Both the position numbers and the translations under genes were made by a program. From Gemmatimonadota bacterium (lineage in GTDB: Bacteria > Gemmatimonadota > Gemmatimonadetes > Gemmatimonadales > Gemmatimonadaceae): a stretch of DNA of 43,046 nt. Positions 4,252 to 42,310 of the stretch are shown here, one piece after another. Position 1 is the first letter of the stretch. Each line of letters begins with the position of its first letter. A model generated the notes under the pieces. The model was not told the DNA's origin. It made no database searches and saw only the letters and a program-made list of their open reading frames with translations. Location of the stretch: positions 1-43,046 of the forward strand of contig JACREJ010000039.1 in assembly GCA_016218305.1 (NCBI GenBank), written 5' to 3'.

Positions 4252-4389
4252 CAGATGGGAGATGGGAGATGGGAGATGGGAGATGGGAGATGGGAGATGG
4301 GAGCGGCTGGACTCGGCGGGCCGGAAAGACGCTCCACCGCGAATTCGGCATCCAGGTTCTCCCATCTCCCATCTCCCATCTCCCATCTG
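4252..4389. repeat. facing arrays of the heptamer GAGATGG between dnaK and htrA
   Basis: The left arm is CAGATGG followed by six perfect GAGATGG units (4252-4300). The right arm (4359-4389) holds four reverse-complement units ending CCATCTG. The right arm starts three bases beyond the dnaK stop. The arms can pair over at least 30 bp, with a 58-base centre, and in several registers because both are periodic. The same heptamer forms the element at 28424-28520. Confidence 0.9.
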
Positions 4390-4392
4390 CCC

Positions 4393-6330
4393 TTACTTCT
4401 TCTTCTCGTCCACGATCTCGTAATCCGCCTCGACCACGTCGTCGGCCTTCTTGTCCGCCGGCGGCGCGTCGGCGCCCGGGGGCGGCGCCTGGTCGCCGGC
4501 GCTCGAAGCCTGCTGCTGCTCGTAGAACGAACGCCCCGCCGCCTGGAAGGCGGCGTTGAGTTCCTCGAGCGCCGCCTTGACCTCGCCGAAGTCCTCGCCG
4601 CGGTGCGCCTTGCGGGCGCGCTCCACGGCCTGGTCGAGGCGCGTCTTCAGCTCAGCCGGCAGCTTGTCGCCCCACTCCTTGGCGTTCTTCTCCACCTCGT
4701 ACGACATCGAGTCGAGGCGGTTGCGCGTGTCGATCTCCTCGCGGCGCTTCTTGTCCTCGGCCGCGTTGAGCTCGGCGTCGCGGATCATCCGCTCCTTCTC
4801 GGCGTCCGTGAGGCCGCTCGACGCCTCGATGCGGATCTTCTGCTCCTTGGCGGTCGCCTTGTCGCGCGCCGTCACGTGCAGGATGCTGTTGGCGTCGATG
4901 TCGAACGTCACCTCGACCTGCGGGGTGCCGCGCGGTGCCGGCGGGATGCCCGTCAGCTGGAACTTGCCGATCGTCCGGTTGTGCAGCGCCAGCTCGCGCT
5001 CGCCCTGCAGCACGTGGATCTCCACCGTCGTCTGGTTGTCGTCGGCCGTGGAGAAGATCTCCGACTTCTTGGTCGGGATCGTCGTGTTGCGCGGGATGAG
5101 CACGGTCGTGACGCCACCCAGCGTCTCGATGCCCAGCGACAGCGGCGTCACGTCGAGCAGCAGCACGTCCTTCTGCTCGCCGGTGAGCACCGCGCCCTGG
5201 ATGGCCGCGCCCACGGCGACGACCTCGTCCGGGTTGACGCCCTTGTTGGGCTCCTTGCCGAAGAACTTCTTCACCATCTCCTGCACCTTCGGGATGCGCG
5301 TCGAGCCGCCGACGAGGAGCACCTCGTCGATCTCGCTCGGCTGCATGCCGGCGTCCTTCAGCGCCTTCTCCATGGGGCCGAGCGTGCGCGTGATGAGGTC
5401 ATCCACGAGCTGCTCGAACTTGGCGCGCGTCATCTGGTAGTTGAGGTGCTTCGGTCCCGACTGGTCGGCCGTGATGAATGGCAGGTTGATGTCGGTGCTC
5501 TGCGTGCCGGACAGCTCGATCTTGGCCTTCTCGGCGGCTTCCTTGAGGCGCTGGAGCGCCATCGGGTCCTTGGAGAGGTCGATCGCCTGGTCCTTCTTGA
5601 ACTCCGCCACCAGCCACTCGATGACGCGCTGGTCGAAGTCGTCGCCGCCGAGGTGCGTGTCGCCATTGGTGGACTTCACCTCGAACTGCTTGGAGCCGTC
5701 GACTTCGTACAGCTCGAGCACCGAGATGTCATACGTGCCGCCGCCGAGGTCGAAGACGGCGATCTTCTCGTCCTTCTTCCCCTTCTTGTCGAGGCCGTAC
5801 GCGAGCGCGGCGGCCGTGGGCTCGTTGATGATGCGCAGCACCTGCAGGCCGGCGATCTCGCCGGCGTCCTTGGTGGCCTGGCGCTGCGAGTCGTTGAAGT
5901 AGGCCGGCACGGTGATGACGGCCTTCGTCACGCCCTGGCCCAGGTAGTCCTCGGCGGTCTGCTTCATCTTCTGCAGGATCATCGCCGAGATCTCGGGGGG
6001 CGAATACGTCTTGCCCTGCACCTCGACCGTCACGACGTCATTGCCGCCGCGAATCACCTTGTACGGGACGCGCTTCTGCTCCTCGGTGGCCTCGGCCATC
6101 TTGCGGCCCATGAAGCGCTTGATCGAGAAGACGGTGTTGGCGGGGTTCGTGACGGCCTGCCGCTTGGCGATCTGGCCCACGAGGCGCTCGCCGTCCTTGG
6201 TGAATCCAACGACCGACGGCGTGGTGCGCCCGCCCTCGGCGTTCGGAATGACGACCGGATCGCCACCCTCCATCACGGCGACCACGGAGTTCGTGGTCCC
6301 CAGGTCGATTCCAATGACCTTGTCTGCCAT
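4393..6330 (-). CDS. dnaK: DnaK, Hsp70 chaperone
   Basis: A 645-residue Hsp70. The ATPase domain starts with [16 protein letters not shown] and contains the phosphate-loop signatures [12 protein letters not shown] and [12 protein letters not shown]. The interdomain linker follows in [13 protein letters not shown] (about 390-400). Then come the substrate-binding beta domain and helical lid, and the tail ends in the acidic [12 protein letters not shown], a degenerate form of the usual EEVD-like bacterial tail. ATG 6330 has GAGGA about four bases upstream. No grpE or dnaJ is adjacent. No CIRCE inverted repeat was found upstream; instead a 10-bp periodic GTCAAT repeat lies 133-158 bp before the start. 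Confidence 0.98.
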
Positions 6331-6462
6331 CTGGTCCTCGTTTCGTTAAGAAGGTCGCACGGCAACCGGGCCGCGAAGGTCCCCAACGACACGCCGGGGG
6401 CGCCGGTTTCGCCGGACTGCCCCAACTATCAGGCAAGGGTGGGGCCACGAAAGCCCTGCCGA

Positions 6463-6488
6463 ATTGACCGGAATTGACTCGCATTGAC
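6463..6488. promoter_or_regulatory. three ATTGAC direct repeats at exact 10-bp spacing
   Basis: ATTGAC occurs at 6463, 6473 and 6483 (GTCAAT on the dnaK strand). One helical turn between copies places all three on the same DNA face, as expected for cooperative binding of a regulator. It is the only ordered element seen upstream of dnaK. It could instead be a short member of the tandem-word arrays common in this window. Confidence 0.45.
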
Positions 6489-6680
6489 TGTTACTTATGG
6501 CAGGACAACGACTTGCGGGACGTCTACGTGCAGGATCGGCAGGGCTGGCGAAACCTTTTGAGGGGGGAGGCGCGTCTAACGGGATACCTGCGCCCCGGGT
6601 AGTTTCGGGGGCCGAACGGCGTGGCGGGAGCAAGCCAGGCGGAAGCCAGCGCCTGCGCGCCGTGCCGGCGGTGAACTGCC

Positions 6681-6720
6681 GTCCTCTGTCGCACTCCGTC
6701 CCACTCTGTCTGATTCAGTC
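6681..6720. repeat. four decamers (nnACTCYGTC) just before the rhomboid start
   Basis: The blocks 6681-6690, 6691-6700, 6701-6710 and 6711-6720 each end in GTC and share nCTCYGTC (the last is TGATTCAGTC). They stop five bases before the ATG, leaving no room for a Shine-Dalgarno sequence. The reverse complement (GACGGAGTGC) matches the decamers at 2291-2330. Confidence 0.65.
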
Positions 6721-6725
6721 CTGAG

Positions 6726-7505
6726 ATGATCCCGATCGGCGACGACAACCCGACGATTCGCGTTCCCGTCGTGACGATCTTCCTGATCGTCGCGATGTTC
6801 GCGGTCTGGGTGCTCGTGCAGGGGGCCGGCGGTGACGAGGGGTTGCTCGCGGCGAGTGTCTGCAACCTGGGAATGGTTCCAGGCGAGTTGAGCGGACTGG
6901 CGCCGCTTGGGTCGGGAGTTCCCATCGGACGCGACCTTGCGTGCGTCATCGACAATCAGGGCATCAACGCGCTGACACCCGTGATCTCGATGTTCCTGCA
7001 CGGCGGGTGGATGCACATCATCGGCAACGCGATGTTCCTGTGGGTGTTCGGGAACAACATTGAGGACGTCGTGGGACGGCGCCGGTTCCTCGCCTTCTAC
7101 CTCATCTGCGGATTGGCCGCGGCGGCGGCGCACATCGCGGTGGATCCCCGGTCGCCGGTTCCGACGGTGGGCGCGTCGGGCGCCGTTTCCGGCGTGATGG
7201 GCGCGTACCTGGTGCTCTTTCCCAGGGTGCGCGTGCGCATGCTCTTCATCTTCGTGATCATCCTGAAGGTGATTCCGCTCCCCGCGTGGCTCGTGCTGCT
7301 TTATTGGTTCACCCTCCAGTTGCTGAGCGGCCTTCCGGAGTTGCTTTCGCCGAATCCCGAAATGGCGGGGGGCGTCGCGTTCTGGGCGCACGTGGGCGGG
7401 TTTGTGGCCGGGGTGTCGCTCGCCAGGCTGTTCGTGAACCCCGCACTCCTGCAGCGGCGACACGATATCCTTTTGTCGCGCAAGGAGTTTGACGCGCTGG
7501 CGTGA
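6726..7505 (+). CDS. rhomboid-family intramembrane serine protease
   Basis: A 259-residue membrane protein with about six transmembrane segments. Rhomboid hallmarks are present: the WMHIIGNAMFLWVFG helix with its conserved His-Asn, the catalytic serine motif GASGAVSG (about residues 154-161), and the partner His in FWAHVGGFVAG near the end. It would cut transmembrane substrates within the inner membrane; the substrate is unknown. The N-terminus has MIPIGDDNPTIR ahead of the first helix, common in this subgroup. The leader is a decamer repeat with no ribosome site, so translation start usage is uncertain. The next gene is 206 bp away. Confidence 0.93.
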   Translation: MIPIGDDNPTIRVPVVTIFLIVAMFAVWVLVQGAGGDEGLLAASVCNLGMVPGELSGLAPLGSGVPIGRDLACVIDNQGINALTPVISMFLHGGWMHIIGNAMFLWVFGNNIEDVVGRRRFLAFYLICGLAAAAAHIAVDPRSPVPTVGASGAVSGVMGAYLVLFPRVRVRMLFIFVIILKVIPLPAWLVLLYWFTLQLLSGLPELLSPNPEMAGGVAFWAHVGGFVAGVSLARLFVNPALLQRRHDILLSRKEFDALA

Positions 7506-7577
7506 GGTGCTCGCGACCAGGGCCGCTGCCGCGCTGATCCCTTTGGCCTGATTGGCGCGCGTCGCGCCGGACGCCAT

Positions 7578-7607
7578 TTGGCGCATCCCGTTGTGCTGGC
7601 GTAGCTT
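7578..7607 (+). promoter_or_regulatory. possible sigma70-type promoter of the DUF47-pit-ppk operon
   Basis: TTGGCG (7578-7583), an 18-base spacer and TAGCTT (7602-7607) lie in the 206-bp gap after the rhomboid gene. The -10 hexamer resembles the TAGCTT/TATCTT boxes before rplS and rpsP. A small GTGCTG/CAGCAC hairpin overlaps it. No TGTMACGG Pho-type repeat was seen here. Confidence 0.3.
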
Positions 7608-7711
7608 TCAGCACGGGCCAGGCGCAAGGCAACGTGTCGCGCTCGGCCCCCTGACGCTCGGCGTCCGCCGAGTGCCCAAACACTGAACATCATTCCGTTG
7701 GAGCGGCGCCC

Positions 7712-8326
7712 GTGCGGCTGATCCCCAAGGACGAAGGCTTTTTCGAGTTGTTCGACCAGTTGTCGACGAAACTGACCAAGTCGGCGAGTGTGCTCGACCA
7801 GCTCTTCAATGAACCCACCCGCCTCGATTTCTTCTCGACGCAGATCAAGCTGGTCGAGCGGGAGGCCGACGACATCGTGCACGAGGTCATGAACCGGCTC
7901 GACCGTTCGTTTGTGACGCCGCTCGATCGCGAGGACATTCACCTGCTGGCGTCGTCGCTCGACACCGTGGTCGACCTGATGGACGGCACGGCGCGGCGCG
8001 CACTGATGTTCAACATCACCGACCGCCGGGATCCCGCGAAGGCGCTTTCCGCGCTGCTGGTGCGCGGCGCCGAAGTGATCGCCGAGAGCGTGAAGCACAT
8101 CAAGGACCCGACGAAGGTCATCGAGGCGGCCCGCGCGATGAAGCTGATCGAGGAAGAGGGCGACGGCATCTATTCGGATGCCGTCGGCGCGCTCTTCCGG
8201 CAGGTGGACGCCAACGCGCTGGATGTGCTCCGGTGGAAGGAGATCTACGACAACCTGGAGCACGCCCTCGACGAGTGTGAGGATGTCATGAACGTCCTCG
8301 AGAGCATCGCACTCAAGAATAGCTGA
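7712..8326 (+). CDS. DUF47 / PhoU-like Pit accessory protein
   Basis: A 204-residue all-alpha protein of the DUF47 family, related to PhoU, with no membrane segment. It opens MRLIPKDEGFFELFDQ. Repeated acidic helices (READDIVHEV, EEEGDGIYSDAV, LEHALDECEDVM) match the metal-binding E/DxxxD patterns of PhoU folds. Members sit next to Pit transporters and are thought to modulate them. Here the stop is two bases before the pit start, so the two are translationally linked. The start is GTG at 7712; the region upstream of it is not conserved. Confidence 0.9.
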   Translation: MRLIPKDEGFFELFDQLSTKLTKSASVLDQLFNEPTRLDFFSTQIKLVEREADDIVHEVMNRLDRSFVTPLDREDIHLLASSLDTVVDLMDGTARRALMFNITDRRDPAKALSALLVRGAEVIAESVKHIKDPTKVIEAARAMKLIEEEGDGIYSDAVGALFRQVDANALDVLRWKEIYDNLEHALDECEDVMNVLESIALKNS

Positions 8327-8328
8327 CC

Positions 8329-9360
8329 GTGCTCACCTACATCCTCGCGATCATCCTGGTCGCGTTCATATTTGATTTCATCAACGGCTTTCACGATGCC
8401 GCGAATTCGATCGCCACGGTCGTCGGCACGCGCGTCCTGAGCCCGATTGCCGCCGTGAGCATGGCGGCGTTCTTCAACTTCATCGCGTTGTTTGTCTTCG
8501 GCACGCACGTGGCCAAGACCATCGGCTCCGGGATGATCGACATCAGCATCGTGAATCCCGACGTGATTCTCGCGGGCCTGCTGGGCGCGATCACGTGGAA
8601 CCTGGTTACCTGGTGGTATGGCATCCCGTCGAGCTCCTCGCACGCATTGCTCGGCGGGTACGCCGGCGCCGCGATCGCGCGCGCCGGTTTCTCGGCGGTC
8701 ATTCCGGCGGGGTGGGTCAAGACCGTTGTCTTCATCGTGCTGTCGCCGATGATCGGCTTGCTCCTCGGGCTGGGCATGATGACGGCCACGTTCTGGATCT
8801 TCCGGAATGCGCGTCCGGCCCGGGTGGATCGGCTGTTCCGGGTGCTGCAGCTCGCGAGCTCGGCGCTGTTCTCGCTCTCGCACGGCGCCAATGACGCCCA
8901 GAAGACGATGGGCATCATCATGAGCCTGCTGCTCGCGAGTCAGGTGGCGGTGGGCCAGGTGGGCGGCGCCTTCTCGTTCCTGCGCGTCGACAATCCCAAC
9001 GACATCCCCATGTGGGTGAAGGCGGGCGCCCACATTGCGATCGGGCTTGGCACGCTCATGGGCGGGTGGCGCATCATCCACACGATGGGCTCGCGGGTCA
9101 CGCGACTCCGGCCGGTGGGTGGATTCTGTGCCGAGACGGGTGGCGCGATGTCGATCCTGCTGGCGACCGGGCTGGGAATTCCCGTCAGCACGACGCACAC
9201 GATCAGCGGCGCCATCGTCGGCGTTGGAACGACGACGAGACTTTCGGCGGTGCGCTGGGGCGTGGCGGGGCAGATGATCTGGGCGTGGATCCTCACCATT
9301 CCCGCCGCCGCGTTCGTCGCCGCGGCGAGTTATCTCGTCATCCACTTCGCTCGGGCCTGA
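8329..9360 (+). CDS. pit: Pit-type low-affinity inorganic phosphate transporter
   Basis: A 343-residue multi-spanning PiT protein that imports metal-phosphate driven by the proton gradient. The two inverted PiT signatures are clear: FINGFHDAANSIATVV near residues 13-28 and LSHGANDAQKTMGI near 183-196. The later GIPVSTTHTISGAIVG repeat mirrors the earlier SSSHALLGG. The GTG start at 8329 follows the DUF47 stop by two bases. It is followed 26 bp on by ppk, so imported phosphate and its storage as polyphosphate appear to be coexpressed, separately from the high-affinity Pst system encoded on the opposite strand. Confidence 0.96.
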   Translation: MLTYILAIILVAFIFDFINGFHDAANSIATVVGTRVLSPIAAVSMAAFFNFIALFVFGTHVAKTIGSGMIDISIVNPDVILAGLLGAITWNLVTWWYGIPSSSSHALLGGYAGAAIARAGFSAVIPAGWVKTVVFIVLSPMIGLLLGLGMMTATFWIFRNARPARVDRLFRVLQLASSALFSLSHGANDAQKTMGIIMSLLLASQVAVGQVGGAFSFLRVDNPNDIPMWVKAGAHIAIGLGTLMGGWRIIHTMGSRVTRLRPVGGFCAETGGAMSILLATGLGIPVSTTHTISGAIVGVGTTTRLSAVRWGVAGQMIWAWILTIPAAAFVAAASYLVIHFARA

Positions 9361-9386
9361 CGGGTCCATCCGCGGCTTCTCGCCCT

Positions 9387-11504: not shown

Positions 11505-11542
11505 TCAACCGCCGGTGGTCGTCACCGCCGGCGGATCAACCC
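11481..11542. repeat. 31-bp tandem duplication across the ppk stop codon
   Basis: CCGGTGGTCGTCACCGCCG followed by (A/G)C(T/G)GATCAACC occurs at 11481 and again at 11512. The first copy contains the last ppk codons and its TGA at 11502-11504; the second is intergenic, before the ppx stop. The second copy carries two substitutions, one of which changes TGA to GGA, so the duplication is not recent or has been selected. Confidence 0.85.
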
Positions 11543-11565
11543 CCAGACGACGTCCCCCCCGGCCG

Positions 11566-13188: not shown

Positions 13189-13250
13189 GCGGGCGGCTCC
13201 CGGCTCGGGGATATCCCCAACGCTAATGCCCGCCGCTCCGCGGGGAAACC

Positions 13251-28423: not shown

Positions 28424-28520
28424 CAGATGGGAGATGGGAGATGGGAGATGAGCGATGGGAGATGGGCGATGGGAGATGGAGAGGGCGTTGCTTTCATCTG
28501 CCATCGCCCATCTCGCATCC
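28424..28520. repeat. heptamer (GAGATGG) hairpin array between convergent pnp and M48 genes
   Basis: Eight contiguous heptamers from 28424 to 28479 (CAGATGG, GAGATGG x2, GAGATGA, GCGATGG, GAGATGG, GCGATGG, GAGATGG) face a shorter right arm at 28495-28520 (CATCTGCCATCGCCCATCTC). It starts on the base after the pnp stop and ends one base before the M48 stop, filling the gap. The word is the one at 4252-4389. It can act as a bidirectional terminator. Confidence 0.9.
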
Positions 28521-28521
28521 G

Positions 28522-29349: not shown

Positions 29350-29352
29350 GCG

Positions 29353-30111: not shown

Positions 30112-30117
30112 GCCATA

Positions 30118-30146
30118 GCACCCCTGCACCCCGCACCCCGCACCGC
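30118..30146. repeat. C-rich words (GCACCCC) between methylase and prepilin peptidase genes
   Basis: GCACCCCT, GCACCCC, GCACCCC, GCACCGC fill the gap and run to within two bases of the next GTG start, leaving no ribosome site. The word matches the terminal arm GTGCAGGGG of the elements after trmD and rnhB, seen from the other strand, but no partner arm is present. Confidence 0.6.
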
Positions 30147-30148
30147 CC

Positions 30149-30985: not shown

Positions 30986-31022
30986 GCCGCAGCCTGCGGC
31001 GGCGCCAACTTTGCGAGGTTTC

Positions 31023-32294: not shown

Positions 32295-32308
32295 GGGAGG
32301 AACGCCTG

Positions 32309-33175
32309 ATGCGACGAGAGTCCCTGAGCGATGGAGCGCGCTGCGCGCTGGTGGCGCTGCTGACACTGGCGAGCGCCGGCTGCATCGAATGGAAGCAGAC
32401 GACCGCGGCGCCGGAGGAGTCGGTGCGGCGCTTCATCTCGCTGGTGCAGACGCTCGACGGGTCGCGCACCGCCAACCTCGTCGCGCGCGCCGCGCCGACG
32501 CCTGGAAGCGGCGCCGTGGTCACGGCAGTCCTGCCCAACCAGGTGCTGCGTGGCGGCACGGTGCAGACGACGCTGACGTCCACTTCCCCGTTCAGCCGCG
32601 CCGTCTTCAGCGTTCCCGGCAACACCGACCACTGGGAGCTGCAGCTCGCCTCGCCAATCACGAGCGTCACCGTGCTCATGGTGATCGCCGTCGAGATGCC
32701 CAAGACGCTCTTCACGCTGCAGATCGCCGGCGGTGGCGCCAGCAACACGGGACCGTACCAGTCGTCCGACCTCGGCGTGATCTTCGTCGGCACGGGGGAG
32801 ATTCAGACGAACGTCATGTGGGACACGCCGGCGGACGTGGATCTGCACCTGATCGATCCGTCCGGGAAGGAGATCTACTACGCGTCGCGCAATTCGCCGA
32901 CGGGCGGCCAGCTCGACCTCGACTCCAACGCCGGCTGCGGCACCGATGGACCGCGCGCCGAGAACATCTTCTGGGGCGACGGAATCGTGGTGCCGCGCGG
33001 CGAGTACATCCTGCGGGTGGATTACTGGTCGAGCTGCGGCGCGTCGAGCACCAATTACACGGTGACGATCAACCTGCGCGGGCTGCCGCCGAAGATCTTC
33101 ACGGGCACGCTGACGGGGACCGGATCGGGAGCGGGAGCCGGAGCGGGCAAAACCATAGCAGTATTTACATACTGA
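32309..33175 (+). CDS. lipoprotein with DUF2135/YfaP-like beta domain
   Basis: A 288-residue lipoprotein (lipobox SAGC, Cys25). The C-terminal part around residues 171-255 reads MWDTPADVDLHLIDPSGKEIYY, then GGQLDLDSNAGCGTDGPRAENI and GEYILRVDYWSSC. This matches the DUF2135 pattern (W-D-x-D-V-D-L-H-V-x-D-P-x-G, then G-x-L-D-x-D, then P-E-N-I), a secreted beta-sandwich of unknown role. The N-terminal half has no recognised domain. The Gly-rich tail GTGSGAGAGAGK precedes the end. It is probably in an operon with the HExxH lipoprotein. The stop lies two bases before an 11-mer hairpin array. Confidence 0.8.
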   Translation: MRRESLSDGARCALVALLTLASAGCIEWKQTTAAPEESVRRFISLVQTLDGSRTANLVARAAPTPGSGAVVTAVLPNQVLRGGTVQTTLTSTSPFSRAVFSVPGNTDHWELQLASPITSVTVLMVIAVEMPKTLFTLQIAGGGASNTGPYQSSDLGVIFVGTGEIQTNVMWDTPADVDLHLIDPSGKEIYYASRNSPTGGQLDLDSNAGCGTDGPRAENIFWGDGIVVPRGEYILRVDYWSSCGASSTNYTVTINLRGLPPKIFTGTLTGTGSGAGAGAGKTIAVFTY

Positions 33176-33177
33176 AG

Positions 33178-33293
33178 AGAAACAACAGAGAGACAACAGA
33201 AAAACAACAGAAAGACAACAGAGGTGACCGCGTTTGACCGTGGCCACCTCTGTTGTCTCTCTGTTGTCTCTCTGTTGTTTGTCTGTTGTCTCT
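33178..33293. repeat. facing 11-mer arrays (AGAGACAACAG) between convergent genes
   Basis: The left arm has four units: AGAAACAACAG, AGAGACAACAG, AAAAACAACAG, AAAGACAACAG (33178-33221). The right arm has four reverse units CTGTTGTCTCT (33250-33293), the third CTGTTGTTTGT. The centre GGTGACCGCG ... GGCCACC pairs partly. It spans from two bases after the lipoprotein stop to three bases before the DUF445 stop. The same 11-mer occurs at 2597-2640. Confidence 0.92.
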
Positions 33294-33296
33294 CTG

Positions 33297-34556: not shown

Positions 34557-34569
34557 CGGTCGGCGTGCC

Positions 34570-35124: not shown

Positions 35125-35131
35125 CGGCGGC

Positions 35132-37699
35132 TCAGCGCGGCTGGTCGGTCGCCGGCCGCTCGGCTGCTGGCCGGACTGGCTGCTGCGGAGCGACGGCGGC
35201 CTGTCCGTCGGTGAGCGGCAGGTCATCGGCAGCCGGTGCGTCCGTCGGCAGGGCGCCAGGGGGCAGGACCGCGTTCTGCCGTCCGCCGCCTGCCGTCTGC
35301 CGTCCGTCCTCGAACAGCGGCAGGTCGTCGGCAAAGCCGAGCGGCGGGGCGGGGAGCAGCATCCGCTCGATCGCCTCGTCCATGCTCTGCACGAACGTGA
35401 ACCGCACCTGCGCCCGCACCTCGTCAGGGAGCTCGCGCAGGTCCTTCTCGTTCGCCGCGGGGAGCATCACCTCGCGCAATCCACTGCGGTACGCGGCCAG
35501 CACCTTTTCCTTCACGCCTCCGATCTCGAGCACCTTGCCGCGCAGCGTCACCTCGCCGGTGACGCCAATGTCGCGGCGCACCGCGCGGCGGCTCATCACG
35601 CTGGCGATCGCCAGCGTCACCGCCACGCCCGCGCTCGGGCCGTCCTTCGGCACCGACCCCGCCGGAAAGTGGATGTGCAGGTCGGTATGCCGCAGTTCGG
35701 GATCGCCCAGCCGGAGCGTCCGTGCGCGTGAGCGTACGTACGAACAGGCCGCGTCCACGGATTCACGCATCACGTCGCCGAGTTGCCCGGTGACGAGCAG
35801 CCGCCCGCTCCCCGACATCAGCAGCGCCTCGATGGACATCAGCTCGCCGCCCGACGCGGTCCACGCGAGTCCGGTCACCGCCCCCACTTCGGCCGCCTGC
35901 TCCGCCTCCTCGGCCGCGTAACGCGGCGGGCCGAGCACCTCTTCGATGCGCGCCTGGTCCACCACCCACGCGCCCAGCTCGCCGTCGGCCTTGCGCCGCG
36001 CGCGCTTGCGCATGAGGGCGGAGAGGTTGCGCTCGAAGTTGCGCAGCCCCGCCTCGCGCGAGTAGCGGCTGGCGAGGAAGCCGAGCGCTTCGTCGGTGAA
36101 CTGCAGGTCCACGTCGGCGATGCCGTTCTCGTCGAGCAGGCGCGGCAGCAGGTAGCGCCAGGCGATCTCGACCTTCTCCTCGATCGTGTAGCCCGCGATG
36201 CGGATCACCTCGAGGCGGTCGCGCAGCGCCGGCGGGATGTCGAACAGGTTGTTGGCCGTCGCAATGAAGAGCACCGACGACAGGTCCACGGGCAGGTTCA
36301 GGAAGTGGTCGACGAACGACGCGTTCTGCGTCGGGTCGAGCACCTCGAGCATCGCGGCCGACGGATCGCCCACCGGCCCGCCCGAGGTCATCTTGTCGAT
36401 CTCGTCGATGAGAAAGACCGGGTCGCTCACGCCGACGCGGCGCAGCGCCTGCACGACGAGTCCGGGGAGCGAGCCCACGTACGTGCGGCGATGTCCGCGG
36501 ATCTCGGCTTCATCGCGCACGCCGCCCACCGAGATGCGGTAGAACTTGCGCCCGATCGCGGCGGCGATGGCCTCGCCGAGCGAGGTCTTGCCCGTGCCCG
36601 GCGGCCCCACGAAGCAGAGGATCGGACCCGGCGCATTCCCGCCGCGCAGCTTGTGCACCGCGAGATGCTCGAGGATGCGGTCCTTCGCCTCGCGCAGTCC
36701 CCAGTGGCGATGGTCGAGCGCTTCCTCCACGCGACCCAGCGCGATGTCCGATGTGCCGCCGGTGCGTCCCCACGGCAGGGCGAGCACCCACTCCAGGTAG
36801 TTGCGCAGCACCTGGTACTCGCTCGATGCGCTTGACAGTCCGCGCAGGCGGGTCACCTCGCGGCGCGCCTCGGTGGCCACGGTGGGCGGCAGCGGCGCCT
36901 CCTCGATCTGGCGCAGCAGTTCGGCCGTTTCGTTGTCCTGCGGATCGCCCTCGCCCAGTTCCGCCTGGATCGCGCGCAGCTGCTGGCGCAGGTAGAACTC
37001 CCGATGGTGGCGCTCGATGTTGGCGTCGGTCTGCACGCGCACGTCCTCGAGCACCGCCGAGCGCGCGAGTTCCTTCTCCACGCGCGCGAGGACGAAGGCC
37101 ACGCGGTCGGCGACGTCGAGTCGCTGCAGCACCTCGTCCTTGTCGGCGGCGCGGAACGGCCCGCGCGCGGCGACGAGGTCGGCGGCATAGCCCGGCGCGC
37201 CGGCATTGAGCCGGACGAGCGCCGACAACTCGGGCGGCGTCGTCTCGATCATCTCGACCAGGCGGTCGGTGGCATCGGCGAGCTGCACGAGGAGGGCGCG
37301 CAGCGACGGCACGTCGGCCGCCGTTTCCGTCACCGGGTCGACGGTGGCGTAGGTGACGGCGTCGCGCCGCGTCACGGCGGCGATGCGCACCCGCGCCGTT
37401 CCTTCGAGCGTCACCTGCAGCGTGTCGCCGGCCACCGCCGCGCGCGAGACGACGCGGGCCAGCACGCCGATGCGTCCCACCTGCGCCGCCGCGTCGCCCG
37501 CGTGGTCGCGCACCGGCGCGACGGCGACGATGACCTCGAGGTCGCGCTCCGGATGCGCCTTGAGCAGCGCCACGTTTTCCGGCGCCCCCATCTGCACGGC
37601 CACGGTGCCGCGGGGGAAGACCGCCGTGGACCGCAGCACGAGCAGCGGCCGGTCAGTGCGGGCGGAATCGGCGGGGAAGGACGGCCCGGGTGCGGTCAC
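35132..37699 (-). CDS. lon: Lon, ATP-dependent protease
   Basis: An 855-residue Lon. The N-terminal LON domain (RPLLVLRSTAVFPRGTVAVQ on) is followed by a coiled segment, the AAA+ domain with Walker A GPPGTGKTS and Walker B FLIDEIDKM, and the protease domain with Ser689 in DGPSAGVA and the paired Lys later in KEKVLAAYRSG. GTG 37699 is the start: TACCTT lies seven bases upstream, and the frame upstream is not conserved. The C-terminal tail of about 65 residues after MLLPAPP is Pro/Ala/Gln-rich and absent in most Lons; part of it is encoded by a heptamer array. It degrades misfolded and regulatory proteins in the cytosol. Confidence 0.95.
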   Translation of the reverse strand: MTAPGPSFPADSARTDRPLLVLRSTAVFPRGTVAVQMGAPENVALLKAHPERDLEVIVAVAPVRDHAGDAAAQVGRIGVLARVVSRAAVAGDTLQVTLEGTARVRIAAVTRRDAVTYATVDPVTETAADVPSLRALLVQLADATDRLVEMIETTPPELSALVRLNAGAPGYAADLVAARGPFRAADKDEVLQRLDVADRVAFVLARVEKELARSAVLEDVRVQTDANIERHHREFYLRQQLRAIQAELGEGDPQDNETAELLRQIEEAPLPPTVATEARREVTRLRGLSSASSEYQVLRNYLEWVLALPWGRTGGTSDIALGRVEEALDHRHWGLREAKDRILEHLAVHKLRGGNAPGPILCFVGPPGTGKTSLGEAIAAAIGRKFYRISVGGVRDEAEIRGHRRTYVGSLPGLVVQALRRVGVSDPVFLIDEIDKMTSGGPVGDPSAAMLEVLDPTQNASFVDHFLNLPVDLSSVLFIATANNLFDIPPALRDRLEVIRIAGYTIEEKVEIAWRYLLPRLLDENGIADVDLQFTDEALGFLASRYSREAGLRNFERNLSALMRKRARRKADGELGAWVVDQARIEEVLGPPRYAAEEAEQAAEVGAVTGLAWTASGGELMSIEALLMSGSGRLLVTGQLGDVMRESVDAACSYVRSRARTLRLGDPELRHTDLHIHFPAGSVPKDGPSAGVAVTLAIASVMSRRAVRRDIGVTGEVTLRGKVLEIGGVKEKVLAAYRSGLREVMLPAANEKDLRELPDEVRAQVRFTFVQSMDEAIERMLLPAPPLGFADDLPLFEDGRQTAGGGRQNAVLPPGALPTDAPAADDLPLTDGQAAVAPQQPVRPAAERPATDQPR
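35278..35305. repeat. heptamer array GCCGTCC inside the 3' end of lon
   Basis: Four in-phase heptamers: GCCGTCC, GCCGCCT, GCCGTCT, GCCGTCC (GGACGGC on the lon strand). They encode the GRQTAGGGRQ part of the Lon tail. The array is inside an open frame and shifts frame every unit, so its phase must keep the ORF intact. It resembles the intergenic word arrays in period and degeneracy. Confidence 0.75.
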
Positions 37700-37706
37700 G
37701 CGTACT

Positions 37707-37726
37707 AAGGTAGCAATTGCGCAATT
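37707..37726 (-). promoter_or_regulatory. lon promoter: TACCTT hexamer and 12-bp palindrome
   Basis: On the minus strand TACCTT (37712-37707) is seven bases before GTG 37699. Just upstream is the perfect palindrome AATTGCGCAATT (37715-37726), placed where a repressor would block the -10/-35 spacer. It may be a heat-stress operator; the binder is unknown. Confidence 0.4.
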
Positions 37727-37736
37727 CCGCGAAAGC

Positions 37737-37771
37737 CCATCTACCATCCACCGTCCACCATCTACCATCAC
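37737..37771. repeat. five heptamers (CCATCTA) in the lon/ffh divergent region
   Basis: Units CCATCTA, CCATCCA, CCGTCCA, CCATCTA, CCATCAC run from 37737 to 37771. Reverse complement TAGATGG/TGGATGG is a variant of the GAGATGG word at 4252 and 28424. Only one arm is present. Unlike most arrays it sits between two 5' ends rather than after stop codons. Confidence 0.75.
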
Positions 37772-37789
37772 TCGCGCGCCCCTCCAGAC

Positions 37790-37795
37790 TATCTT
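37790..37795 (+). promoter_or_regulatory. putative leaderless -10 hexamer of ffh
   Basis: TATCTT is followed by seven bases and ATG 37803. No ribosome site exists. The same TATCTT box is the -10 of rpsP downstream, where a proper -35 at 17-bp spacing is also present. Confidence 0.45.
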
Positions 37796-37802
37796 TAGCT
37801 CC

Positions 37803-39122
37803 ATGTTCCAGGAACTCTCCGACAAGCTCGAAGCCACCTTCGCCAAGCTCCGCGGCCGCGGCACGCTCAGCGAGGCCGACATCAAGGACGGCCTGCGCGA
37901 GGTGCGCCGCGTCCTGCTCGAGGCCGATGTCAACTTCCAGCTGACGCGCGAGTTCCTCGAGCGCGTCGAGAAGGCGGCGGTCGGCGTCTCGCAGATCCGC
38001 ACCGTCTCGCCGGCGCAGCAGCTCGTGAAGATCGTCTACGACGAACTCACGGCCATGCTGGGCGAGCGCAAGGAAGGGCTCAAGCTCTCGACCGTGCCGC
38101 CCACCGTGGTGCTGATGGTCGGCCTGCAGGGCTCGGGCAAGACGACGACGGCCGCCAAGCTGGCGCGCCGGCTCAAGGCCGAGGGGCGGCCGGTGCGCCT
38201 CGTCGCGGCCGACGTCTATCGTCCCGCCGCCATCGACCAGCTCGAGTCGCTCGGCAAAGACCTCGACATCCCCGTCTACGCTGATCGGTCGACGACCGAC
38301 GTCGTGAAGATCGCGCGCGCCGGGCTCGACGCGTCGCGCCGCGAGCGCGACCGCGTGCTGATCATCGACACCGCCGGCCGCCTGCAGATCGACGACGAGA
38401 TGATGAACGAGCTGCGCCGCCTCAAGGAGGCGGTGCGCCCCGACGAGATCCTCCTCGTCGCCGACGGCATGACGGGCCAGGACGCCGTGAAGATCGCGCA
38501 GGGCTTCGACAGCGCCCTTGGCCTCACCGGCGTGATCCTCACCAAGATGGACGGCGACGCGCGCGGCGGTGCGGCGCTCTCCATCTACGGCATCACCAAG
38601 AAGCCCATCAAGTACATCGGCGTCGGCGAGAAGAGCGATGCCCTCGAGGAGTTCCATCCCGACCGCATGGCCGGGCGCATCCTCCAGCAGGGCGACGTGC
38701 TCACGCTGGTGGAGAAGGCGCAGGGGGCCATCGACGCCGACGAGGCCAAGCGCCTCGACAAGAAGGTGCGGAAGGAGGGGATGGACCTCTCCGACTTCCT
38801 CGCCGCGATGAAGCAGATCCAGCGGCTCGGGCCGATGGAGGGGATCCTGAAGCTCCTCCCCGGCGTGAACGCCAAGATGCTCAAGCAGGCGAACACCGAC
38901 CCCAAGCGCCTCAAGCACCTCGAGGCCATCGTCCTCTCGATGACGGCCGAGGAGCGCAAGAAGCCGGACATCCTGAACGGCTCGCGCCGCGCGCGCATCG
39001 CCAAGGGGAGCGGCCGCCCGATCAGCGAGGTCAACAAGCTGCTCGAGCAGTTCCGCGGGATGCAGAAGATGATGAAGTCGATGAAGGGCGGGGGACGGAT
39101 GCAGTTTCCGGGGATGAGATAG
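37803..39122 (+). CDS. ffh: Ffh, signal recognition particle GTPase
   Basis: A 439-residue SRP54 homologue that binds signal sequences and 4.5S RNA and delivers ribosomes to FtsY. An N-domain (1-90) precedes the G-domain, with P-loop GLQGSGKTTTAAKLA (107-121), DTAGRL (G3), TKMDGDARGGAALS (G4 and insertion), and the Met-rich M-domain ending in RGMQKMMKSMKGGGRMQFPGMR. Homology begins at MFQELSDKLEATFAKLRG, so ATG 37803 is used although the frame is open upstream. It is the first gene of the plus-strand block ffh-rpsP-rimM-trmD-rplS-rnhB. An inverted repeat lies after its stop, and rpsP has its own promoter. Confidence 0.97.
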   Translation: MFQELSDKLEATFAKLRGRGTLSEADIKDGLREVRRVLLEADVNFQLTREFLERVEKAAVGVSQIRTVSPAQQLVKIVYDELTAMLGERKEGLKLSTVPPTVVLMVGLQGSGKTTTAAKLARRLKAEGRPVRLVAADVYRPAAIDQLESLGKDLDIPVYADRSTTDVVKIARAGLDASRRERDRVLIIDTAGRLQIDDEMMNELRRLKEAVRPDEILLVADGMTGQDAVKIAQGFDSALGLTGVILTKMDGDARGGAALSIYGITKKPIKYIGVGEKSDALEEFHPDRMAGRILQQGDVLTLVEKAQGAIDADEAKRLDKKVRKEGMDLSDFLAAMKQIQRLGPMEGILKLLPGVNAKMLKQANTDPKRLKHLEAIVLSMTAEERKKPDILNGSRRARIAKGSGRPISEVNKLLEQFRGMQKMMKSMKGGGRMQFPGMR

Positions 39123-39140
39123 GATCTGATTTCGGATAGG

Positions 39141-39262
39141 GAGCTCGGATGGGGATTTGCGATTTGGATTGGCGATCGGGATTCGTGATCGGGATTCGTG
39201 ATCGGGATCCCAATCACCAATCCAGATCGCCAATCCAAATCCCCTAATCCCAATCCGAGCTC
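39141..39262. repeat. 122-bp inverted repeat of GGGATTCGTGATC words after ffh
   Basis: Outer arms GAGCTCGGAT (39141-39150) and ATCCGAGCTC (39253-39262) are perfect. Inner arms GATTTGGATTGGCGATC (39161-39177) and GATCGCCAATCCAAATC (39225-39241) are a perfect 17 bp. Two tandem GGGATTCGTGATC units (13 bp) lie in the middle. The long hairpin begins 18 bases after the ffh stop and ends 25 bases before the rpsP -35, so it probably terminates ffh mRNA. Confidence 0.92.
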
Positions 39263-39287
39263 ATACTCCCCAATCGTCGTTTGGGAC

Positions 39288-39316
39288 TTGAGCCCCCGCC
39301 CTGAGCCAGCTATCTT
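39288..39316 (+). promoter_or_regulatory. sigma70-type promoter of the rpsP operon
   Basis: TTGAGC (39288-39293), a 17-base spacer and TATCTT (39311-39316). It lies 115 bp before the rpsP ATG, leaving a leader of about 110 bases in which no known riboswitch was recognised. Confidence 0.6.
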
Positions 39317-39431
39317 ATTAGGCTCGCTGCTCCAGCCGATCCAACCGGATTGGCCCCGGGTGCGGACCGGACATTCCGGCCCCGCGATGAGCCCGCCGGC
39401 AGCTCCTTACCGCTTCTCCCGAGTGCATCCG

Positions 39432-39746
39432 ATGGCCGTTTCGATTCGTCTCCGCCGCGCGGGCCGCAAGAAGGCCCCCATGTACCGCATCGTCGTCGCC
39501 GACTCGCGCATGCCGCGCGACGGCAAGTTCATCGAAGTCATCGGCCAGTATCAGCCCCGCACGGGCGAGAAGGCGGTGGCGCTGAACACCGAGCGGGCCA
39601 ACTACTGGCTCGACAACGGCGCCCAGCCGTCCGACACGGTCCGGTCGCTCCTCCGCAAGGCGGGCGTCCTCAAGGCGCGCCACGAAACGCGCCTCGCGGC
39701 CAAGCTGAGCGCCGCCGCGGTCCCCGTGACGGAGACCCGCGAGTAA
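39432..39746 (+). CDS. rpsP: 30S ribosomal protein S16
   Basis: A 104-residue S16, opening with [25 protein letters not shown]-type sequence and [12 protein letters not shown], the invariant S16 core. The C-terminal extension after [10 protein letters not shown] is short and Ala-rich. S16 binds 16S rRNA early in small-subunit assembly. The start at 39432 is the ATG immediately before AVSIRL; the longer open frame upstream is leader. It is followed by rimM after four bases. Confidence 0.97.
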
Positions 39747-39750
39747 CACC

Positions 39751-40296
39751 GTGACCATCGGCCCCACCGCGGTCGTTGGGCGCGTCCGTCGCGCCCACGG
39801 CATCAAGGGCGAACTGGTGGTGGCTCTCGAGACCGACGCGCCGGACGCGATCTTCGCGCCCGGCGCGCGTGTCATCGTGGGGACCCCGGACGGCGACCTC
39901 GCCCCTGACGCCAGGACCGGCCGGCTCGTCGAGCTGGTCGTGCACGCCGCGCGCCCGTTCCAGGATGGCCTGCTCGTCTTCTTCACCGGCATCGCCGATC
40001 GCACCGAGGCGGAGAAATGGCGCGGCCGCTCACTGCTCGTCCCCGTGAGCGAGCTCGAGCCGCCGGCCGAGGGCGAGTTGTGGGCGCACGAGCTCCCCGG
40101 GATGCGCGTCGTGGACCCGCGGGGTGACCTCATCGGCGACGTGCACGGCTACTACGAGCTGCCGCAGGGGCTCGTGCTCGAGATCGAGACGCCGCGCGGC
40201 CTGCGTGACGTGCCGTTCAACGACGCCTTCGTGCAGGCCTTCGACCGTGACGCGCGGGTGATCACGCTCGACGCGCCGGGAGGCCTGCTCGAGTGA
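39751..40296 (+). CDS. rimM: RimM, 16S rRNA processing / 30S maturation factor
   Basis: A 181-residue RimM. The N-terminal beta-barrel has VVGRVRRAHGIKGELVV (family GRIxKxHGIKGE), then a PRC-barrel domain (about 95-175) with ELPGMRVVDPRGDLIGDV and a C-terminal DVPFNDAFV. It binds S19/S13 region and aids assembly of the 30S head. GTG 39751 starts four bases after rpsP. Its stop overlaps the trmD start (GTGA). Confidence 0.95.
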   Translation: MTIGPTAVVGRVRRAHGIKGELVVALETDAPDAIFAPGARVIVGTPDGDLAPDARTGRLVELVVHAARPFQDGLLVFFTGIADRTEAEKWRGRSLLVPVSELEPPAEGELWAHELPGMRVVDPRGDLIGDVHGYYELPQGLVLEIETPRGLRDVPFNDAFVQAFDRDARVITLDAPGGLLE

Positions 40297-40952
40297 AGAT
40301 CAACATCGTCACCATCTTCCCCGAGTTCTTCGCCGGCCCGCTGTCGCTGAGCATTCCCGACAAGGCGCGCGAGGCGGGGAGCGTCGCGTACCATGTCGTG
40401 GACCTCCGCGACTACACGCACGACAGGCACCGCACGGTGGACGACTACCCGTACGGCGGCGGCGCCGGCATGGTCATGAAGCCCGGGCCCTTCTTCGAGT
40501 GCGTCGAGGCGCTCGGCGCCAAGGCCCCCATCGTGCTGCTGTCGCCGCGCGGCAAGGTCTTCTCGCACGCCGACGCCGAGCGGTTCGCCGCGGGCGAAGA
40601 GCTCACGCTGCTCTGCGGCCATTACAAGGACGTGGACCAGCGTGTGGCCGACCATCTCGCCACCGAGGAGATGTCGGTCGGCGACTTCGTGCTCTCGGGC
40701 GGCGAGCCGGCCGCACTCTGCATCGTGGATGCCGTGGTGCGCCTGCTCCCCGGCGCGATGAGCGACCACGACAGCGCGCGCGGCGACTCGTTCTACGGGC
40801 GGGGCCTGTCGGCGCCGAGCTACACGCGGCCGCCGGAGTTCCGCGGGCACGTGGTGCCGGACGTGCTGCTGTCGGGGCACCATGCGGAGATTGAGAAGTG
40901 GAGAAAGGCTGAAGGGGAGCGGTTGACCAGGCTGCGTGAGGAGGGGGATTAG
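40293..40952 (+). CDS. trmD: TrmD, tRNA (guanine-37 N1)-methyltransferase
   Basis: A 219-residue SPOUT methylase that makes m1G37 in tRNAs and so prevents frameshifting. It opens KINIVTIFPEFFAGPLSLSI, has DDYPYGGGAGMVMKPGP (cofactor and catalytic Asp region), LLCGHYKDVDQRV and the trefoil-knot loop SVGDFVLSGGEPAA. The length is slightly short for the family (about 240). GTG 40293 overlaps the rimM stop. Its TAG is the first base of a long inverted purine element. Confidence 0.96.
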   Translation: MKINIVTIFPEFFAGPLSLSIPDKAREAGSVAYHVVDLRDYTHDRHRTVDDYPYGGGAGMVMKPGPFFECVEALGAKAPIVLLSPRGKVFSHADAERFAAGEELTLLCGHYKDVDQRVADHLATEEMSVGDFVLSGGEPAALCIVDAVVRLLPGAMSDHDSARGDSFYGRGLSAPSYTRPPEFRGHVVPDVLLSGHHAEIEKWRKAEGERLTRLREEGD

Positions 40953-41080
40953 TGCAGGGGTTTGGAAGGAGAGAGGAGTGGAGAGAGGGGGGAGGGGAGA
41001 GGTGGCCCTCTCGGCTGGGAGAGGTCGCCTCCCCACCCCTCCCTCATCCCTCCACTCCTCCCCCTACCAAACCCCTGCAC
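40952..41080. repeat. 129-bp purine/pyrimidine hairpin element after trmD
   Basis: Terminal arms GTGCAGGGGTTTGG (40952-40965) and CCAAACCCCTGCAC (41067-41080) are perfect. Between them a purine-rich arm (AGGAGAGAGGAGTGGAG) faces a pyrimidine-rich arm (CTCCACTCCTCC). The first base is the last base of the trmD stop. The same layout and words occur after rnhB at 42174-42310. Confidence 0.92.
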
Positions 41081-41110
41081 CCATCCTCTAACCCCAAGCA
41101 ATTCCAGCGC

Positions 41111-41139
41111 TTGACGATAGCCGGGAACTCGGCTAGCTT
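41111..41139 (+). promoter_or_regulatory. sigma70-type promoter of rplS-rnhB
   Basis: TTGACG (41111-41116), 17-base spacer, TAGCTT (41134-41139), 41 bp before the rplS ATG. The spacer contains an imperfect AGCCGGGAACTCGGCT dyad. With the hairpin at 40952-41080 it separates rplS-rnhB from trmD. Confidence 0.6.
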
Positions 41140-41180
41140 TCAAGGCTCGACTATCGCACTTACCTCCGCTGGATAGCGCT

Positions 41181-41561
41181 ATGCATCCCTTCATCGAAAC
41201 GCAGAAAGAGTGGCTCAAGGACGTCCCCCCGTTCCGCGCGGGTGACACGGTGCGCGTGAACGTGCGCGTGAAGGAAGGAGACAAGGAGCGCCTCCAGGCC
41301 TTTGAGGGCGTCGTGATCGCGCGCAAGGGTGAGGGCGTCAGCAAGACGTTCACCGTGCGCAAGATCAGCAACGGCGTCGGCGTCGAGCGCATCTTCCCGC
41401 TGCACTCGCCCATGCTCGAGAGCGTGAGCGTCGTGCGCCGCGGCCGCGTGCGCCGGGCCAAGCTGTTCTATCTCCGCGAGCTCACGGGCAAGGCGACGCG
41501 CATCAAGGAGAAGAAGATCCGCGTGGCGGTGCCGGTTACGGGCTCGGCCGAAGAGGCGTAA
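41181..41561 (+). CDS. rplS: 50S ribosomal protein L19
   Basis: A 126-residue L19, opening [18 protein letters not shown], then [29 protein letters not shown] and [18 protein letters not shown], the conserved L19 core. It sits at the 30S-50S interface. No ribosome-binding site is evident before the ATG. It is followed five bases on by rnhB. Confidence 0.97.
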
Positions 41562-41566
41562 CGCGG

Positions 41567-42175
41567 GTGGGGCGCTGGAGCGCGGTCGAGCGCTCGCTGC
41601 GCGCCGAAGGCGCCCGGCTCATCGCCGGAGTGGATGAGGTCGGACGGGGCCCGCTCGCGGGTCCCGTTTTTGCTTGCGCGGTGATCATGCCGCCGGCAGC
41701 GCGGGCCATCGCCGGGGTCGAGGACTCCAAGAAGCTGAGCGCCACGGAACGCGAGCGGCTGGCCGCGAAGATCCGGGAGAAGGCGCTCTGCGTGGCGCTC
41801 GGCGCGGCGAGCGTGCACGAGATTGCCGAGTTGAACATCTACCAGGCGACGGCGCTCGCGATGCGGCGGGCGCTGCGCCGGCTCAGCGAGCGTCCGGACG
41901 CGGTGCTGGTGGACGGCAAGCCGATCAAGACGCTGGGCGTGGCGCACCGGGCGTTCGTGGGTGGGGACTCGCGCATCTATTCAATTGCCTGCGCCAGCAT
42001 CGTCGCGAAGGTCGCGCGGGACCGGTTGATGCACTCGCTCGCCCGGCGGCACCCGGCGTACGGCTGGGAGGCGAATGCGGGATACGGCACGCCCAGGCAT
42101 ATCGCGGCGCTGCGGGAGGCGGGACTCACCCCCCACCATCGGGTGATGTTCTGCCGGGGACTTCTCCAGGGTTGA
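41567..42175 (+). CDS. rnhB: ribonuclease HII
   Basis: A 202-residue RNase HII that removes misincorporated ribonucleotides and RNA in RNA-DNA hybrids. Catalytic acidic residues are in AGVDEVGRGPLAGPV (the DEDD start), VLVDGKPIK and SIACASIVAKVARDRLM. The usual GYGTPRHIAALREAGLTPHHR end is present. GTG 41567 is five bases after rplS. The product ends directly at a second purine hairpin element. Confidence 0.97.
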   Translation: MGRWSAVERSLRAEGARLIAGVDEVGRGPLAGPVFACAVIMPPAARAIAGVEDSKKLSATERERLAAKIREKALCVALGAASVHEIAELNIYQATALAMRRALRRLSERPDAVLVDGKPIKTLGVAHRAFVGGDSRIYSIACASIVAKVARDRLMHSLARRHPAYGWEANAGYGTPRHIAALREAGLTPHHRVMFCRGLLQG

Positions 42176-42310
42176 GGAGGGGTGCAGGGGTTCAGGAGGA
42201 GAGAGGAGTGGAGCGCGGGGAGAGGGGGGAGGTGGCCTGCTGGGCATGCCTCCTCCCTCAAACCTCATCGCTCCACTCCTCCCTCCTCCCAAGCCCCTGC
42301 ACCCCTCCTC
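42174..42310. repeat. 137-bp purine/pyrimidine hairpin element after rnhB
   Basis: Terminal arms GAGGAGGGGTGCAGGGG (42174-42190) and CCCCTGCACCCCTCCTC (42294-42310) are perfect over 17 bp, and the inner AGGAGTGGAGCG (42204-42215) pairs with CGCTCCACTCCT (42269-42280). It starts inside the rnhB stop codon. Words are shared with the element after trmD. Confidence 0.93.

Follow-up and report, generated by a model that had tools for sequence, protein, structure and literature searches.

The stretch of Gemmatimonadota DNA analysed here (43,046 nt, referred to as the window) raises the question of what the short words are that stand in tandem at the ends of its genes, often as two facing arms able to pair with each other, and of what keeps those arms complementary. 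A preliminary description of the window had read them as very long hairpins that end transcription or protect mRNA 3' ends, with arms copied or slipped together by a replicating or converting process. Our analysis points, with a probability of about one half, to presumptive transcript-boundary elements whose arms would be kept complementary by slippage together with DNA template switching. The placement of the elements, their polarity and complementarity, the memory of word class by locus, the turnover of the words and the sharing of arms and not loops between loci were established by computation.

Facing-arm arrays in the window were located by script, and a scan for long hairpins was run against three shuffles. 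Six intergenic facing-arm arrays and three one-armed arrays make up nine clear sites (Table 1), and the figure of at least ten given in the preliminary description is reached only if degenerate sites are counted. Eight of the nine adjoin a gene 3' end, the exception being the class A-like array that lies between two gene starts. Long hairpins numbered nine in the window (six intergenic and three within genes), compared with 1, 0 and 0 in the shuffles, which bears out the excess of arm complementarity previously claimed. RNA folds of the six facing-arm sites ranged from -49 to -124 kcal/mol, and for the seven folded sites, i.e., these six and the htrA site, z lay between -5.3 and -12.3, with none of 200 shuffles equally stable. 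The product of the htrA-like protease gene has trypsin-like and PDZ domains. Two gene names needed correction: "pnp" is a PNP_UDP_1 phosphorylase gene, and no Pfam family matched the supposed DUF2135 lipoprotein gene (32351-33175) at E 1e-6; the convergent neighbour of this gene is DUF445.

Table 1. Tandem-word arrays and an associated hairpin in the window
Position	Strand	Feature	Context and fold
2564..2599	-	Short GC-rich hairpin, after the one-armed htrA array	Score 26 vs maximum 18 in 50 shuffles; folded
2595..2643	-	One-armed class B array, ~4.4 units of 11 nt, facing arm missing	Directly after stop of htrA-like protease gene
4246..4395	-	Class A (AGATGGG) facing arrays, 4.4 + 7.3 units	From dnaK stop codon; -97.7 kcal/mol, z -11.0
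28425..28519	.	Class A facing arrays, convergent gap	Phosphorylase stop 28423, M48 peptidase stop 28522; -48.7 kcal/mol, z -5.3
30118..30144	+	One-armed pyrimidine-rich array (GCACCCC, 3.7 units), without facing arm	7 nt past stop of SpoU methylase gene
33176..33295	.	Class B (11-nt unit) facing arrays, filling convergent gap	Stop 33175, DUF445 gene stop 33297; -79.9 kcal/mol, z -12.3
37737..37769	-	One-armed class A-like array, without facing arm	Between lon and ffh gene starts
39141..39262	+	Class D (GATT words, period 13) facing arrays	After ffh stop; -87.7 kcal/mol, z -9.6
40952..41080	+	Class C facing arms	At trmD stop; -104.2 kcal/mol, z -8.1
42174..42310	+	Class C facing arms	At RNase HII stop; -124.2 kcal/mol, z -12.3

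The words are GATGG-NN, ACAACAGAG-type, GGAACGAGG-type and GATT-type, repeated in the window with periods of 7, 11 and 13, and a period of 10 was seen in relatives. The recurrence of one word at loci far apart, noted early on, holds for AGATGGG across the window's genome. As had been recognised from the start, the units run head-to-tail without spacers, and CRISPR was rejected on that ground; a known RNA family was likewise rejected, since Rfam, searched over the whole window at gathering score, gave tRNA-Leu as its sole match. Degenerate sites were observed at ~6684-6719 and as traces after the tRNA-Leu gene. At four one-armed or degenerate window sites a facing arm was sought, and none found there beat shuffles.

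The placement of the arrays was followed in a sample of 2.18 Mb from ten species of the genus, a group of uncultured bacteria, with genes called by a purpose-written GC-frame script. Strong stems were present in 43 of the 139 convergent gaps, in 73 of the 629 tandem gaps and in 20 of the 208 divergent gaps, and shuffled gaps had none; these rates are biased upward because the stretches of the window's genome were chosen for AGATGGG and a few stretches of relatives for class A or B words. Stems in tandem gaps began at a median of 7 nt after the stop codon, and 56 of the 73 began between -12 and +20 of it (mean 24.3 and maximum 39 in 2000 random placements), so that gene-end placement was upheld against both random placements and shuffled gaps. 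The purine-rich arm came first in 72/73 tandem, 40/43 convergent and 19/20 divergent stems, and in all 68 word-paired loci. Word loci were intergenic in 220 of 242 cases; 68 of the 242 had a facing array by exact word pattern, and 174 had none by this pattern, which degenerate arms would escape. So common a one-armed state weighs against the boundary reading. The stems of the 20 divergent gaps lie away from any called stop, an observation that counts against it too.

Long hairpins at gene ends could be plain RNA structures that terminate transcripts or protect their 3' ends, with ordinary compensatory selection on the RNA preserving the pairing. Such an account is favoured by the enrichment at convergent gene ends and by the great stability of the folds, and the tandem gaps without G000 had a mild excess of G.U over A.C mismatches (64 vs 42), which leaves room for RNA-level selection. 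Watson-Crick pairs made up 88-89% of paired stem columns. Counts of G.U and A.C mismatches were 90 and 72 for tandem gaps, 42 and 55 for convergent ones, and 14 and 23 for divergent ones; a small control on tRNAs, for which 18 of the 41 predicted could be used, gave 9 and 2. As G.U barely exceeded A.C, RNA-level selection alone is insufficient to explain the pairing, and a pure RNA-wobble account was rejected on this weak bias relative to tRNA. Transversion mismatches were at least as common as transitions in classed tandem stems (159 vs 142), which also weighs against compensatory selection on the transcript; in convergent stems without a class, A.C exceeded G.U by 21 to 5, a result that weakens our reading. 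A U-tract, taken as five or more T among the 8 nt that follow, was present after the outer stem in only 4/73 tandem and 1/39 convergent cases. Within the loops, a terminator-like inner hairpin was found in 21/58, compared with 4/58 control pieces (mononucleotide shuffles were used in the folding), and the inner hairpins of some loops may qualify as intrinsic terminators. With so few U-tracts, a small G.U excess at most, and separate terminator-like hairpins in the loops, the proposal that the full stem terminates or protects RNA was not borne out, and we consider the plain RNA account rather doubtful, if still a serious contender.

What the stems retain, and what they change, was more informative when species were compared. 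Both members had a stem in 53 of 418 orthologous pairs (26 expected), and the word class was identical in 45 of 45 classed pairs by signatures that were written after the data were seen; clusters made without classes agreed in 8/9 (permuted mean 3.1, maximum 8). Within a class, loci of one genome were more alike than orthologues in 64/73 comparisons. In a less guided test the best match within the own genome exceeded the orthologue in 57/74 and every other-species match in 49/74, and the orthologue exceeded the best non-orthologue in only 24/74. Class B favoured its own genome in only 8/13 comparisons, which, like the less guided test, weakens our reading; its orthologues resembled one another less (0.54) than did unrelated loci in other species (0.70), and class A words are mixed in two genomes, G005 and G006, where homogenisation is incomplete. 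An arm was better matched by its own partner in 322/420 comparisons, a result that leans that way by preselection of stems for self-complementarity. The earlier statement that arms vary jointly with complementarity kept was supported, with words that differ between species, and the frequent retention of one kind of hairpin at a given gene in related species, though in another spelling, suggests that both arms were rewritten together in DNA.

Memory of class by locus, together with alike words within several genomes, would also be explained if every class had a dedicated protein that binds it as DNA or RNA, and a genome's words tracked changes in that protein; the coexistence of several words of one class in G005 and G006 speaks against this, and we hold it to be improbable. 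G-rich repeats that fold into quadruplexes, the proposal made for Xanthomonas and Nostoc, would suit the AGATGGG arrays of the window's genome, in which GGG recurs every 7 nt, and place and polarity match the repeats described in the available text of PMC4692102; yet GGG is absent from class B words and from the words GATGGCG, GACGGTG and GATGGTA that relatives use in class A, all of which have the same place and polarity. Quadruplexes as a general rule were therefore rejected, and as an explanation of the arrays they are very unlikely. Just as unlikely is a mobile REP- or MITE-like repeat spreading as a unit, even though the same words occur at many loci and long class C arms are common to at least six loci of the window's genome. 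Arms were alike in 88/92 locus pairs and loops in 5/92 (~2 by chance), on which whole-element mobility was rejected; no recent whole-element copies with their loop at new sites were seen in the compared stretches; and a search for Y1_Tnp transposase (PF01797) gave 0 in the window's genome and a presence in 2/10 genus relatives, leaving eight without it. Of the replicating or converting process first envisaged, the mobile element is unsupported because loops are not shared and the window's genome has no Y1_Tnp, and a converting process is the best inference for the arms.

Under the transcript-boundary reading, an element would consist of a purine-rich tandem array near the stop codon, a locus-specific loop, which in some cases would itself be a terminator-like hairpin, and a facing pyrimidine-rich array. 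The arms would grow through replication slippage, and their complementarity would be maintained by DNA template switching, one arm being copied off the other; within a class, short-tract conversion, of which no event was observed, would partly homogenise the words between loci of a genome. The element would probably serve as a transcript boundary working from either side, in that the purine-rich nascent RNA of the first arm, with the hairpin or an inner terminator, could favour pausing and termination or shield mRNA 3' ends. More tentatively, gene ends may be undergoing a genome-wide rewriting, in which a locus keeps its class while, within each of several genomes, the words of a class are pushed towards one dialect, in both arms at once and with the loops unmoved. 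Such rewriting would amount to concerted evolution of short, dispersed DNA words, with purines leading on either strand; it is not accounted for by any transposase found here, and transcription-coupled copying between gene ends (through R-loops or RNA templates) is a candidate mechanism for it. Several classes, some of them quadruplex-incapable, agree in place and polarity, so that experiments could distinguish between readings based on quadruplexes, on hairpins and on a purine-first order. Orthologous gene ends that differ in their words provide a natural test of how bacteria homogenise dispersed short repeats and of whether template switching maintains long stems.

The exact class B pattern was found in 8/10 same-genus genomes, the window's included, and in 0/385 others drawn from the phylum, although the reversed-pattern controls of the word scans were imperfect, given the likeness of the words to their reversed forms. 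Among named genomes, the 80 stretches listed of 97 came from MAGs titled Gemmatimonas, Gemmatimonadetes or Gemmatimonadota, together with one MAG titled "bacterium" that matches, by position, the genus member G002, one Saprospiraceae contig with two units, and one Phycisphaerae contig that shares its sampling cast with one of the Gemmatimonadetes MAGs listed and for which our guess is misbinning. For the dnaK end, 30 of 42 matching genomes were taken as loci, 26 of them new; among these 26 family members from other genera a stem scored at least 30 in three, one of which was built of tandem words and lay 147 nt from the stop. The class F pattern, scanned in two odd genomes, gave no match.

Among known systems, intrinsic terminators are gene-end hairpins in which a GC-rich stem is followed by a U-tract. 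The elements share with them the gene-end position, commonest in convergent gaps, and some loops resemble a terminator, but the outer stems span ~20-80 bp from the stop codon onwards, and a U-tract seldom follows them. REP and BIME elements, which are tied to a RAYT transposase, are likewise short palindromic extragenic repeats at gene ends, and a GTAG or CGTC tag marks the REP palindrome; REP elements are 20-40 bp long (PMC3733652), whereas the stems here are longer and built of tandem words, and a REP/RAYT identity was rejected, as the window's genome has no Y1_Tnp. Template switching, according to the available text of PMC8794818, both makes and repairs complementary arms in one step and was demonstrated there for RNA genes, unlike the dispersed tandem-word arrays for which it is proposed here. 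The TAACTGA direct repeats of Beggiatoaceae resemble ours in being many intergenic tandem heptamers genome-wide, but in the portion of PMC4679880 available they are one word, lie mostly towards start codons and are proposed to be regulatory, whereas our arrays are at gene ends and have facing arms.

For Gemmatimonadota, a literature search in which subscription journals were thinly covered found no description of such arrays. The preliminary description knew of no named family, which holds only in part: stop-codon heptamer arrays, often in facing pairs, already appear in the available text of Rehm et al. 2015 (PMC4692102). These are tandem GGGNATC heptamers of Xanthomonas and Nostoc, ~90% intergenic in Xanthomonas, found near stop codons on the sense strand, with 70 and 75 cases of facing arrays, and rare between divergent genes; their gene context is the same in 83% between two species while length and sequence vary, and that text leaves their role open, proposing quadruplexes. 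Ours are similarly intergenic tandem arrays near the stop, with a purine-rich sense strand and facing inverted pairs. They differ in that the unit of Rehm et al. (GGGNATC / GGGGAYT) is quadruplex-capable while class B words and most of the class A words of relatives are without GGG, in that several word classes with periods of 7, 10-11, 13 and longer coexist in one genome, and in that the class is constant for a locus although species differ in their words, all in another phylum. As far as the available text of that paper allows the comparison, the GGGNATC repeats are the closest known kind, and what is new here is the use of several words, some of them quadruplex-incapable, and of dialects.

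Six intergenic sites in the window have two facing short-word arms and three further sites have one arm, and six of the nine long hairpins found in the window by a hairpin scan (against 1, 0 and 0 in three shuffles) are these facing-arm sites. The six paired sites folded at free energies between -48.7 and -124.2 kcal/mol (z between -5.3 and -12.3); the fold of the one-armed htrA end (-38.9, z -7.6) is due to an inner hairpin only. The window's genome (G000) is known from 2.0 Mb in 116 contigs, 92% complete. A survey of ten species of the genus drew on 2.18 Mb and covered 976 gaps between 40 and 600 bp long, with genes called by our own script and stems counted at a score of at least 30. Stems were present in 43/139 convergent, 73/629 tandem and 20/208 divergent gaps versus none in shuffled gaps, so that the arm complementarity noted in the preliminary description exceeds chance. 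With G000 excluded, the counts were 31/107, 56/502 and 14/158, and the tandem-gap rate differed by species (1/58 in G008, 16/102 in G001, 15/85 in G010).

That the arrays begin close to stop codons, also claimed previously, was upheld: 56 of the 73 tandem-gap stems start -12 to +20 nt from the stop, versus a mean of 24.3 and a maximum of 39 in 2000 random placements. The median start is 7 nt past the stop, and the median end 104 nt ahead of the next gene. Convergent gaps are filled by the element, whose edges lie a median of 9 nt from one stop and 7 nt from the other. Stems of divergent gaps lie about 60 nt from either gene start. Read 5' to 3', the purine-rich arm comes first in 72/73 tandem, 40/43 convergent and 19/20 divergent stems. 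An independent scan for word patterns matched at 242 loci (220 intergenic). By exact pattern, 68 of these loci carried facing arrays, each with the purine array first and the pyrimidine array second, and none reversed.

Stems were assigned to classes by six word signatures.

Word classes, with mean similarity within a genome / between orthologues / between unrelated loci of different species, and comparisons in which own-genome loci exceed orthologues
Class	Signature	Similarity	Own genome above
A	GATGG-NN, 7 nt	0.77 / 0.36 / 0.24	33/36
B	ACAACAGAG-type, 10-11 nt	0.80 / 0.54 / 0.70	8/13
C	GGAACGAGG- or GAGTGGAG-type	0.83 / 0.63 / 0.66	16/16
D	GATT words	0.77 / 0.72 / 0.65	7/8
E	CGAAG, G000 only		
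F	ACGGAG, G006 only; CACGGAGG type, period ~8-9		

The class is remembered by locus. Of 418 pairs of orthologous ends, 53 had a stem in both members, versus 26 expected. In 70 orthologous gap pairs both gaps held stems; the 45 with a class for both members agreed in every case (mean 15.8, maximum 28 in 5000 permutations), as did 24/24 without G000. Clustering without classes gave agreement in 8 of the 9 informative cases (3.1 on average and 8 at most under permutation). By eye, the dnaK end has a tandem-word array, of differing words, in 9 of the genus's 11 species (weak in G004, none in G009), and the ffh and trmD ends have one in most, with clear absence at ffh in G005 and G008 and at trmD in G004, G007 and G008.

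Within a class, the words mostly follow the genome: in 64 of 73 comparisons, loci of one genome resembled each other more, on average, than orthologues did (mean 0.77 versus 0.50), and in 28/35 without G000. The major class A unit is GATGGGA in 22/31 loci of G000, whose stretches are biased, GACGGTG in 20/26 of G010, GATGGCG or GATGGCA in 12/18 of G001, GATGGCG in 5/7 of G008 and GACGGTA in 4/5 of G003, and is mixed in G006 and G009. The strict pattern GGGAGATGGGAGATGGGAG matched 76 times in G000, once in G006, its sister in a tree with 5 of 10 inner branches poorly supported, and 0-7 times in the other nine whole genomes. From its similarities, class B has a word common across the genus.

Per element, 88-89% of paired columns are Watson-Crick, though words vary between species. 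Selection on an RNA stem should raise G.U far above A.C mismatches; the counts were 90 to 72 for tandem gaps (64 to 42 without G000), 42 to 55 for convergent gaps (31 to 43 without G000) and 14 to 23 for divergent gaps (9 to 20 without G000), and 9 to 2 in a small tRNA control (18 of 41 predicted tRNAs usable). The RNA-level effect is therefore at most mild, and confined to tandem gaps. A small set of classless convergent stems had A.C over G.U by 21 to 5, where strand symmetry predicts equality. Copying of whole elements would spread arms and loops together, and is counted against by locus pairs of the same genome and class, in which arms were alike in 88/92 and loops in 5/92 (about 2 by chance). 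Slippage, as in the unequal dnaK arms of the window (4.4 and 7.3 units), would let arrays grow, and template switching between facing arms, consistent with PMC8794818, would keep them complementary; together the two fit the pairing, and short-tract conversion may explain the likeness of words across loci.

Classed elements gave 58 loops that were 24 nt or longer, and 21 of these fold unusually well (z below -2), versus 4/58 control intergenic pieces; several of the 21 are, by eye, GC stems resembling intrinsic terminators. Transcription through such elements may stop short of the second arm, so that an mRNA arriving from either side would carry a purine-rich tail, an arrangement that would fit the polarity and the missing wobble bias.

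Side features and class F loci (L, numbered stretches of DNA)
Stretch	Position	Feature
L122	6466 onward	class F, long facing arms
L143	12726 onward	class F, long facing arms
L145	11458 onward	class F, long facing arms
L151	15511 onward	class F, long facing arms
L198	1146-1165	class B word, genus-specific, on contig labelled Phycisphaerae
L031	10260-10380	perfect 28-bp inverted repeat, 65-nt spacer, divergent gap, without tandem words; outside classes A-F
window	2290-2441	degenerate class B-like words on both sides of space 3' of tRNA-Leu gene; pairing no better than shuffles
window	6684-6719	short pyrimidine-rich array, ~10-nt units, just ahead of gene at 6726; no facing arm found

The four class F loci belong to relatives, and three of them lie in divergent gaps, away from called gene ends. 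The L198 contig, from the same sampling cast as one Gemmatimonadetes MAG among the matches listed, is probably misbinned.

The dnaK ends of 26 family members from other genera mostly show a plain, short hairpin or none above shuffles, with a score of at least 30 in 3/26, and we infer that the arms look like a sleeve that this genus has added to its gene ends. Near dnaK or ffh ends, two further genera of the family use their own tandem words (GGGAAAC and GAACTGC for G012, in L060 and L082; GGCATCA for G149, in L337); the kind of element therefore extends beyond this genus.

The elements behaved neither as REP/RAYT, CRISPR or plain intrinsic terminators nor as units that move whole in the tests made here, and a literature search found, among the papers it covered, no description of such elements in the phylum Gemmatimonadota. 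The earlier statement that no named family matches them stands for the word and for quadruplex features, and gives way in other respects: judged against the account of Rehm et al. 2015 (PMC4692102), their word and quadruplex features differ from those of the heptamers of Xanthomonas and Nostoc, but in place, polarity and facing pairs they are of the same kind.
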